Shown: piece by piece, positions 3,818 to 60,700 of the stretch
How the letters are laid out: each line of letters starts with the position of its first letter
Numbering within the stretch: the stretch's first letter is position 1
Origin: Dicyema japonicum
Taxonomy: Eukaryota > Dicyemida > Rhombozoa > Dicyemidae
Assembly: GCA_011109175.1 (NCBI GenBank)
Contig: RDEW01000084.1
Coordinates: 24,862 to 88,861 of the forward strand
Direction of reading: 5' to 3'
Length of the DNA: 64,000 nucleotides
The notes under the pieces: generated by a model
Database searches by the model: none
The model's input: only the letters and a program-made list of their open reading frames with translations
Told to the model about the DNA's origin: nothing
Position numbers and translations under genes: made by a program

Positions 3818-4432
3818 TTATCCCGTAAGCAAGCCTTTGAGCAAAATTTCGCGTTTTCTCAAATTTATGAGGATAGAGTCTATCTTTTTCGAATCGTACC
3901 ATCCTTCTAAACTGCATAACATTGCAGGTAGTATCGCAGTGTTGAAGATATAAACAAAAGTCTCCGGCTCGAGCTTTAATTTTCTAACGCAGTAAAGAGC
4001 GTTAGTAGCTTTTTTCTTTCGTATTTTAGCATGTTCCATAAAATTACCTCCCTCGTCAATTAGGAGGCCAAGGTATTTCATAGTTTTTTTCCGAGGTATG
4101 TCTTTTAACAAGCTTTTTAAGTTAGCCATTCTCTTGCTTCCAGTTATCCTCAGCATACCAGACATCTCACGTGGTGCCGAAAGGAAGTTTTCATTGCACC
4201 ACTTTTGAATCTGATCCATGTATGTTTTCAAACGTTTCTCAGATACCAAAGGGTTTAAAGAAACATCATAAATTATGACGTCATCAGCGTATATCAAAAT
4301 TTCTGTACGTGGGTTTTCTGGAGAAGGCAATTCACTCAATTCAATGTTATAAATGACGGGAGGCCAAACAATTTCCAGGTTAGGATTTTCCTTAAGACAG
4401 AGTCGAAGGCCATTTGTAAATTGATCGAGCAA
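3818..4432 (-). mobile_element. Non-LTR RT fragment with intact YADD
   Basis: A 204-codon minus-strand frame carries ILIYADDVIIYD (RT active site, both aspartates present), then about 80 residues later KTMKYLGLLIDEGGNF, the usual thumb-proximal 'YLG...D' block. It ends with a segment (LKLEPETFVYIFNTAILP...GWYDSKK) that is also present at 31878-32141. The upstream palm and finger motifs are missing, so it is 5' truncated. It is among the least broken RT frames here. The clade is unresolved, either Jockey/CR1-like or a relative. Confidence 0.75.
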
Positions 4433-4439
4433 ACGACTG

Positions 4440-5025
4440 TTTTGAGATGGAGAGGATTGTGATCACTCATTAGTTCTGTGGATCACTCGGATGAATTGAT
4501 CAGAAAAGTAATCCATACAATTTGGTTAAATTGGATTATAAAAGTTCTTATTCCGTATGTGCTTTTTACTATACAGCAATATAATCTGGTTTGTGAAAAA
4601 ACAAGTTATAAAGTTTAATTAATACTATAATTTTCAGAATTTATGTTTTTTAAGAAAAAATTAAGTTCGTTAAGAAAAGGAATGATCCAAGTTGCTAAGA
4701 AAAAAATGAAGAAAATTGTAAAAGAGAATGCTCTTAATTCTCCCTGAATAATCCGAAACTTTTTTCAAAAATGTGTTGTTCCGATAAAAAAAAAGATAAT
4801 TCACAAATCTCGTATGGTGCTTTAATCCCTAAAAAAGTGCCAGAATCGTTAAGAAAGACCCTTGCTTTGATTTAAGAGATGAATCCATGATCCTTTATTC
4901 CACACAAAATTCAAAAATGAGTTTATTGATAGCAAGTTAGTTTGTCTGGAGAAAGGCCTTTATCTGAAACCTTTTCTCTTGATGAATTAAATCTATCAAT
5001 TGGAGGATGTGGCCATTTTGAATTG
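4440..5025. other. No gene seen
   Basis: AT-rich stretch with no convincing coding motif and no recognisable repeat boundary before the SINE. Confidence 0.45.
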
Positions 5026-28942: not shown

Positions 28943-29696
28943 ATGCACAATTTTCACATTGATGAGTCTATTATGATAAAAGGTATAATTTACTAAACTC
29001 ATTATAAAGTTGTCTTAATTGGTGATTCTAATGTTGGGAAAAGTCAACTTTTGAACCGATACGTCCGCAACAAATTCAACCACGAGTCCAAATCCACAAT
29101 CGGAGTTGAATTCTCTACAAAGTACGTGTGTCTTTATACCAAAGGAGCATCCTAATTTCTGAAAAGTCACTTAGAGTTCAATTGTGGGACACAGCTGGGC
29201 AGGAACGATTCAAATCTGTCACTTCCTCGTAATTCATTCTCATCTCAGTTATTATCGAGGAGCCCACGGAGTCGTCCTAGTCTTTGATATCACTTCTGAG
29301 TCTTCTTTTGAGTCCTTGAGCACGTGGTTGAATGAAGTGAAGACTTACGTTGATTTTGATTCAGTGTCATCCCTATTAATAGGAAACAAGAATGATTTGG
29401 AGGAGGGGAGGGTAATCAGTTTGAAAAGGGGGAAAGAATTTGCTGGTAATGTAAATTTGTGATTGTAGTTGATAATAATATGCGTTTTATGGAGACTTCT
29501 GCACTTTCTGGGAATAATGTTGATTTGGCCTTTTATGACTTTTTTAGTGGTAGTTGATATGGTGAATTAAGATATTTATGGGGCTGTGGGACACACTTTG
29601 GAGGAGAAGGTGACAAGTAACCTCCCTCACTCTCATAAACTAGAGGGAATAAAATCATCAAATAAAGAAACCCTTAAGTGTTGTAAACTAAATTGA
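28943..29696 (+). CDS. rab11: Rab11-like small GTPase, six exons with 20-27-nt introns
   Basis: Joining 28943-28982, 29010-29121, 29145-29228, 29249-29445, 29469-29549 and 29572-29696 gives one frame of 212 codons. The introns are 27, 23, 20, 23 and 22 nt, all GT-AG. Motifs are GDSNVGKS (residues 18-25, phosphate-binding loop), KSTIGVEF (41-48, switch I), WDTAGQERF (65-73, switch II with Gln70), GNKNDL (124-129, guanine base) and ETSAL (153-157). The protein ends KCCKLN, a double-cysteine prenylation signal placed as in Rab11 (human ends CCQNI). Length (human Rab11A 216 aa), the [13 protein letters not shown] block and the tail all favour Rab11, which controls recycling-endosome traffic at membranes. 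Asn21 replaces the usual Gly. A TTTAG just before GTGGATG could be a splice acceptor. AATAAA lies at 29776-29781. The gene looks intact. Confidence 0.9.
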
Positions 29697-60064: not shown

Positions 60065-60700
60065 ATAATAGTTAGGTGAGATCCTCATCAGTTAGACGGT
60101 TACGAAATTTTGTTATGATAGATACCAATTTACTAAAGAGCGATTCACATGCATATGTTGACGCAAATACTGAAGAAATTTTTTGAACATGACATATTAA
60201 ATTAGGATATTTCCCATATAAAATTTGACATAAAAATTCAAGTATTGTACACTTATTAAATAAAGATATCAAATTTATATCCGACTGTAATTCTAACAGT
60301 TCCATTTGAAATTCGTCAGGAGCGAAGGCCGAATCAATATGAATGGGTACTGAGAATACTTTTGATGAGACTGCATTGATTGAATGATGCATTGTCTTTA
60401 TTCTCAGAAAGTGAAATAAATTATGTTGTATCGCAAGATGAAATTTGATTTCTCCAAAGGTGAAGGTTTGCAATAAAGGCAGAGACTTTTCACTACAATT
60501 CGTGACATAGCTCGTTCCAAAATTCTCTGAGTATTTCAATCTCTTTCGTAGAGCCATGTATGAACCTCAATGTTAGAATTTCCTCATAAATCTGGAAATA
60601 TGACAATAGTTTGTTTCATCATTTCACCATCTGGCCTAAATTCACTATATAAATTTAATTTGAAAAAAGTAGCTAAGGGGCCGGAAATAAAATTCATCGG
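60065..60700 (-). mobile_element. hAT (GTF2IRD2/ZBED-like) transposase C-terminal half
   Basis: A 161-codon frame (60072-60557): VPIHIDSAFAPDEFQMELLE, LQSDINLISLF, then YGKYPNLICHVQKISSVFAS, TYACESLFSKLVSIITKFRN, RLTDEDL. 'FQ.EL..LQ.D...' and 'FGSTY.CE.LFS..K..KT..R..LTDE.L' are the C-terminal blocks of hAT-derived GTF2IRD2/ZBED/EPM2AIP1 proteins. It is one of the better kept DNA-transposon frames in the window. Further coding similarity (FFKLNLYSEFRPDGEMMKQT) extends up to about 60700 in other frames. Confidence 0.75.

Follow-up and report, generated by a model that had tools for sequence, protein, structure and literature searches.

Micro-introns of 20 to 27 nucleotides in a Rab11-related gene of a dicyemid genome and the short signals that may direct their splicing

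A Rab GTPase gene with five short introns

The window, by which we mean the whole stretch of 64,000 nucleotides analysed, carries at 28943-29696 (+) a gene modelled with six exons and five introns with GT-AG ends (Table 1). Joining the exons gives a coding sequence of 639 nt and 212 residues with its sole stop at the end; the five intron positions proposed in an earlier note on this DNA are exact to the base. That note had also held the introns to be needed for an unbroken Rab, and this is borne out: the unspliced segment has stops in each of the three forward frames, introns 2 to 5 each break the frame if kept, and intron 1 contains an in-frame TAA. The features that characterize a Rab GTPase, namely five G boxes, an IGVEF switch and a C-terminal double cysteine, are all found in the spliced protein, whose boxes were presumptively named G1 to G5. 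The five predicted G boxes are all present. The predicted CC prenylation tail is there as far as the double cysteine is concerned, but it is not terminal, as KLN follows.

Table 1. Exons and introns of the Rab gene in the window
Feature	Coordinates	Strand	Description
Exon 1	28943..28982	+	13 residues and first base of V
Intron 1	28983..29009	+	27 nt, phase 1; in-frame TAA; A at -9; outside profile-alignment recovery
Exon 2	29010..29121	+	G1 GDSNVGKS, G2 TIGVEF
Intron 2	29122..29144	+	23 nt, phase 2; A at -7 and -9; recovered by profile alignment
Exon 3	29145..29228	+	G3 WDTAGQE
Intron 3	29229..29248	+	20 nt, phase 2, shortest of the gene; A at -7, T two bases upstream of A; recovered by profile alignment
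Exon 4	29249..29445	+	G4 NKND
Intron 4	29446..29468	+	23 nt, phase 1; A at -7; recovered by profile alignment
Exon 5	29469..29549	+	G5 ETSALSG
Intron 5	29550..29571	+	22 nt, phase 1; A at -7; recovered by profile alignment
Exon 6	29572..29696	+	variable tail ending CCKLN, TGA stop

Two further regions of the window have matches to mobile elements, of which they appear to be remnants: a weak reverse-transcriptase match at 3821-4462 (-) (E 5e-4, below cut-off) and a hAT dimerisation match at 60075-60566 (-) (E 1e-7). Eight other long open reading frames of the window were tested and gave no Pfam match.

A spliced profile aligner was written for this work, in which any intron of at least 8 nt carries an equal penalty and no length is preferred. 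This splice-aware alignment, of a kind suggested earlier as a check, placed introns 2 to 5 at identical coordinates, and the window gene scored 485 with GT-AG ends compared to 289-440 with nine control dinucleotide pairs. Intron 1 was missed because the N-terminus of the window Rab is divergent. It is supported by its in-frame stop, by the absence of a start codon between this stop and the G1 box, and by a phase 1 intron that interrupts the corresponding codon of a Rab11 gene on another contig (L028).

The window protein matches the Pfam Ras family with an E-value of 1.9e-57. The solved chain that it matches best is 5ub8, a Rab-family protein without a name of its own (E 4.5e-54); Rab11A, Rab11B and Ypt31 come next, with E-values of about 1e-51 to 3e-52. 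A protein database search gave 7858 matches among 7987 scored candidates; many of the best 120 of these 7858 are unnamed, and those with a name are for the most part Rab11 or Ypt31. The second of the matches listed is Rab-10 of a nematode, and the orthonectid Intoshia linei is represented by its Rab11A. L028 is a better Rab11 than the window gene (profile score 688 versus 485) and sits among the Rab11s in the Rab tree with modest support (81/82; 91/80 one fork out). The window Rab, by comparison, lies on a long branch without firm placement, the nearest rows by path being Rab11s. The earlier description as a Rab11-like gene holds in so far as solved chains and tree paths relate the protein to Rab11, but probably not in the sense of a Rab11 orthologue, for which L028 is the better candidate. 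By sequence comparison, the window gene would be a divergent paralogue, and "Rab11-related paralogue" is the safe name for it.

Introns 1 to 3 of the window gene match the first three introns of L028 (44, 22 and 23 nt), interrupting the same codons in the same phases (columns 13, 50 and 78; phases 1, 2 and 2). The position of intron 2 recurs in L026, where the intron measures 24 nt, and that of intron 3 in a third Rab, L036, where it measures 21 nt. Because its position is common to L028 (23 nt) and L036 (21 nt), the 20-nt intron 3 is in all likelihood of old origin, with a length that varies between genes, and not a recent insertion. A position of intron 5 common to the window gene and L028 was dropped when the last L028 intron was re-read. 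This 3'-most intron can be read as 18 or as 30 nt, and either reading stays in frame and leaves the CC tail intact; at 18 nt, it would be shorter than all other introns kept. A 23-nt reading is wrong, as it yields a stop.

These positions bear on the possibility of a pseudogene in decay, or of a retro-copy, whose segments of 20-27 nt would be insertions or assembly errors, an alternative that the earlier note had itself raised in the form of a retro-copy with sequencing insertions. The nearby mobile-element remnants, that is the hAT match and the sub-threshold reverse-transcriptase match, and the long branch of the window Rab would suit such an origin. A retro-copy would be intronless, however, while five of five segments are GT-AG and belong to one size class, three of the five lie at positions common to the L028 paralogue on another contig, and all G boxes as well as the CC tail are intact; we regard this explanation as very improbable. 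With high confidence, we read the window gene instead as an intact protein-coding dicyemid gene for a Rab GTPase related to Rab11, in which five ordinary U2-type spliceosomal introns have shrunk to the ~23 nt usual in this genome. This confidence applies to what sequence can establish, namely the size class, the GT-AG ends, the restored frame, the shared positions and the canonical U1, U2 and U6 guide sequences described below.

Micro-introns as a size class of the genome

Dicyemids are minute animal parasites of octopus and squid. The earlier guess that the DNA is of dicyemid origin agrees with the Pax6 gene of this genome, which was used as a query across one frame break: in the best 120 of 7711 matches, the first is Dicyema acuticephalum Pax6 (E 1.2e-108, 69% identity over 85% of the query), the second has 49% identity over 83% (E 1.9e-94), and some lower listed ones reach up to 73% over less than half of the query. 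Its paired box and homeobox are interrupted by introns of phases 0, 1 and 0, as reported likewise for Dicyema Pax6 (PMC2222250). Since its Pax6 is closest to that of D. acuticephalum, the genome is evidently that of a dicyemid, and of one other than D. acuticephalum. The assembly (64.67 Mb in 191 contigs) and the GC content of the window (28-45% per 2 kb) are consistent with, but not diagnostic of, D. japonicum, whose genome is given as 67.5 Mb with 36.7% GC (PMC6736024). In the Pax6-type gene L009 (G000:C13), the frame of the paired box breaks after HETGCFE and before TIGGSKPRV, a point at which D. acuticephalum Pax6 runs on without interruption; this break is either an assembly error or real.

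Introns this small might also point to a protist, be it a Paramecium-like ciliate or a member of another lineage, as those of Paramecium bursaria, with a reported median of 24 nt, fall in the same size class (PMC12862383). Against this, Pax-type genes were found in the genome, one of them, with paired box and homeobox, being nearest to D. acuticephalum; there is a match to U12 snRNA, which is reported as not found in the ciliate Stentor (PMC9505925); and the gene models were translated with the standard code. A protist source is hardly credible, and the introns are discussed below as those of a dicyemid.

The Ras-family sample comprised 30 loci, the window gene and 29 others, with 29 further places left out. 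Aligned with GT-AG ends, these loci yielded 85 introns. Lengths of 20-28 nt were found in 55 of them, versus 3-18 introns in this range for 14 control dinucleotide pairs, and GT-AG outscored each control pair in 24-29 of the 30 loci. The size class is therefore a property of the genome and not an artefact of the method. A length of 20 nt had been described as near the lower limit for animals: such tiny introns are real, but in this genome they are the norm (55/85) and not a rarity.

A strict flank test was passed by 36 of the 85 Ras introns, of which 26 measure 31 nt or less, six 44-87 nt and four 376-922 nt, so that 10 of the 36 exceed 31 nt. We take the four longest to be false joins, which is unproved, and the 44-nt one, intron 1 of L028, as real. 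Adding to the 26 short ones intron 1 of the window gene and 14 introns of U2AF, SF1, SPF45 and two Pax6-type genes, these last 15 standing outside the flank test, gave a set of 41 introns with a mean length of 23.5 nt (sd 1.7, median 23, range 20-28). In genes unrelated to the Ras family, introns measure 22, 23, 22 and 23 nt in U2AF, 23, 23 and 23 nt in SF1, 24, 23, 25 and 21 nt in Pax6, and 26 nt in SPF45. Longer or doubtful gaps were left out of the micro-intron counts; these are gaps of 68 and 1269 nt in U2AF, 40 nt in SF1, and 20, 31 and 47 nt in Pax6, the 20-nt one being a product of the frame break. Gaps of 46 and 366 nt in the Pax6-like L010 and of 23, 80 and 277 nt in L012 were likewise not counted. 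The joined models of U2AF, SF1 and SPF45 thus hold eight gaps of 22-26 nt and three longer ones (40, 68 and 1269 nt).

A looser set of 73 rows contains one row later judged wrong, the 23-nt reading of the last L028 intron. Apparent introns shorter than 20 nt were mostly alignment artefacts: a 16-nt one in L008 and one of 19 nt in L034 can be read through as normal Ras/Rab sequence and were kept out of the 73 rows. One possible intron of 19 nt, in L044, did not pass the strict flank test. A gene finder relying on codon usage, applied to obtain introns free of homology, produced implausible chains and, once its introns were limited to 100 nt, showed no advantage of GT-AG over five control pairs. 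All intron counts consequently rest on protein-guided models. The minimum intron length in splice aligners is usually 20-50 nt, a setting at which many dicyemid introns would be missed.

Splicing signals, machinery and a possible route of assembly

Of the 41 introns, 40 have an adenosine at -7 to -9 relative to their 3' end, compared to 25.5 (sd 2.9) in shuffled sequences, and 0 of 2000 shuffles reached this number. A T two bases before an adenosine at -9 to -6 occurs in 32/41 (17.4 expected, sd 3.1). Farther upstream in the same 41 introns, neither test gave an excess (24 versus 25.5 and 19 versus 17.5), nor was the classical branch motif YTRAY enriched in them (9 versus 8.9 expected). The adenosine excess at -7/-8 was first noticed in the Ras introns alone, and the interval -7 to -9 was set after position tables had been inspected, the second of which already included the 14 non-Ras introns. 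These 14 taken alone have the adenosine in 14/14 (8.6 expected, fraction 0.0012) and are a separate subset, but no true hold-out. In the 73-row set the excess is smaller than in the strict set (65/73 versus 48.0), and the window gene, with 5/5 versus 3.2, is by itself not significant (fraction 0.085).

On the donor side, the base after GT is T in 19 and A in 19 of the 41 introns, +5 is G in 8/41, and exon position -1 is G in 25/41. In the 73-row set, the base composition at +4 to +6 differs little from that of the interior, pyrimidines are slightly raised at -6 to -3 (0.66 versus 0.55 inside) and TTTT runs are not enriched (19/73 versus 25.2). Within 26 gene spans, 1083 GT..AG pairs lie 15-35 nt apart, 59 of which are modelled introns, amounting to 18 pairs per intron. 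Site profiles combined with length, trained without the gene under test, reached an AUC of 0.945 and a precision of 58% at the true number, with one row later judged wrong. Short signals and length go far in picking introns but are insufficient alone.

U2 snRNA gave 25 matches, 22 of them above cut-off, with GUAGUA in all six copies examined. U1 gave 11 matches, none above the Rfam cut-off of 69.5 bits (best 69.0), and five of the six copies examined have the guide ACUUACC / ACUUACCUG at the 5' end; ACAGAGA is present in both U6 copies examined. With regard to the U2 type, the introns of the window gene have GT-AG ends and restore the frame on removal, canonical guide sequences of U1, U2 and U6 occur in the same genome, and a putative branch adenosine at a constrained distance is found, by position only and without a motif, in 40/41 introns of the strict set. 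U12 snRNA has one match, at G000:C68:163471-163599 (-), with 85.4 bits against a cut-off of 53. Compact as it is, the genome may have kept a minor spliceosome.

Two deviations were seen in these snRNAs. All six U2 copies examined (L019-L024) have one extra A relative to the Rfam consensus, between GAUCAA and GUGUAGUA and adjoining the branch-recognition region. The sixth U1 copy, L047:1501-1660 (-) on G000:C126, begins with ACUUACUUG instead of ACUUACCUG. The changed base would presumably pair with an A at exon position -1, where A is the second commonest base (21/73), and the copy could be a functional variant or a pseudogene.

Among protein factors, the U2AF large subunit was matched exon by exon, with no single exon above the family cut-off. 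Measured against human protein sequences, the joined U2AF model has 180/340 identities, the SF1 model 120/201 and the SPF45 model 36/78; RED is represented by one matching exon. The conservation of U2AF and SF1 does not suggest that either might be dispensable. Since SPF45 and RED are expected in most animals, their presence is no proof of a special use.

The finding raises the question of how the splicing machine fits on such short pieces. For the human B complex, a minimum of ~52 nt between donor and branch has been derived, made up of a 17-nt U6/donor helix, a 14-nt U2/branch helix and ~21 nt between them, and Smu1 and its partner RED are reported to turn essential as this distance shrinks (PMC6692369); SPF45 is reported to substitute for U2AF on truncated pyrimidine tracts (PMC8363638). 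On the introns described here, U1 would meet a donor offering little beyond an exonic purine and GTW, and the branch point chosen by U2 would be the adenosine at -7 to -9, a step that we consider probable. The AG would come directly after the branch region, leaving no space for a polypyrimidine tract. If this adenosine is the branch, the donor-branch distance is ~12-20 nt and therefore below the sum of the two helices, so that the two long helices known from the human B complex could not both form over their full length. Assembly would proceed with shortened helices. As U6 would pair at donor positions +4 to +6, the weakness of the donor there fits this shortening. SPF45, replacing tract-bound U2AF, would be routinely employed together with RED, as on the shortest human introns; as the standard route in dicyemids, this last step is a tentative analogy that we consider rather doubtful.

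U2AF and SF1 alone might also accomplish splicing, as in other animals, with U2AF gripping exonic or very short pyrimidine runs and no special role for SPF45 and RED. The presence and good conservation of the U2AF large subunit and SF1 speak for such a mode, as does the slight rise in pyrimidines at -6 to -3, but about four to six bases are left between the inferred branch site and the AG, and TTTT runs show no enrichment; on balance it seems unlikely. Returning to assembly with shortened helices, the wider picture would be that of an animal with conventional-looking U1, U2, U6, U12, SF1, U2AF, SPF45 and RED that routinely splices introns with a donor-branch distance of ~12-20 nt, the signals being almost only GTW, an exonic purine, an adenosine at -7 to -9 and length. 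Its spliceosome would have to form without U6/donor and U2/branch helices as extended as those of the human B complex, and the one-base-longer U2 linker and the U1 variant pairing with A at -1 may belong to the adaptation. We put this picture forward as a conceivable one about which some doubt prevails.

Comparison with known short-intron systems

Very short and weakly marked dicyemid introns are already known, those of ~26-27 nt since 2007 and their weak 5' signals since 2008. Dicyemid micro-introns were reportedly also treated by Ogino et al. in 2010, a work cited in later dicyemid literature. Published values are a mean of 26.2 nt (sd 1.9, n=16) for D. acuticephalum (PMC2222250), a median of 27 nt with about two thirds below 30 nt for Dicyema sp. 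(PMC6543705), and a mean over all introns of 38.2 nt for D. japonicum (PMC6736024). The introns in these reports resemble those studied here in phylum, size class and conserved intron positions. Our sampled micro-introns, a set cut at 31 nt with mean 23.5 and median 23, are somewhat shorter than the 26.2 nt of D. acuticephalum, to whose Pax6 ours is only 69% identical; this difference (Welch p 4e-5) is suggestive only, being drawn from different genes and from a set so cut.

According to Irimia and Roy, dicyemid 5' intron boundaries are the weakest known, at 0.5 bits, and short-intron lineages including dicyemids are without a branch-point signature (PMC2483917). Donors are weak here too, with +4 to +6 near the interior composition and G at +5 in 8/41, although the scores were computed differently. 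In contrast with that report, a positional excess of adenosine at -7 to -9 is seen here with more introns, still without a motif. Among the matches listed in a search of the dicyemid literature on introns, genome assembly or chromosome, and splice sites, whose scope leaves out most subscription papers, no title or abstract opening dealt with branch points except that of PMC2483917. The present genome adds the positional adenosine and the argument from donor-branch geometry, which deserve further attention.

Paramecium, Stentor, Mikrocytos and the Bigelowiella nucleomorph have introns of comparable or smaller size, but they are protists (PMC12862383, PMC9505925, PMC10245619). The guide sequences of U1, U2 and U6 are reported to be canonical in Stentor as they are here, whereas U12, not found there (PMC9505925), has one match in the present genome. 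Mikrocytid introns, of 16-17 nt, are described as highly conserved in sequence, unlike those studied here. Dicyemids being animals, their spliceosome is presumably nearer to the human one than those of ciliates or nucleomorphs are.

Human introns that depend on SPF45 and on Smu1/RED share with the present ones a short donor-branch distance and a truncated pyrimidine tract (PMC8363638, PMC6692369), but the human test introns measure 56 nt (HNRNPH1) and 70-150 nt (MINX series) as against a total of 20-28 nt here. Whole dicyemid introns are about half as long as the ~50 nt that human spliceosomes reportedly need between donor and branch (PMC6692369). Because dicyemids are animals and yet have introns of about half that distance, they offer a natural test of what the early assembly of a spliceosome truly requires, and of whether SPF45 and Smu1/RED fix the lower limit of intron size.
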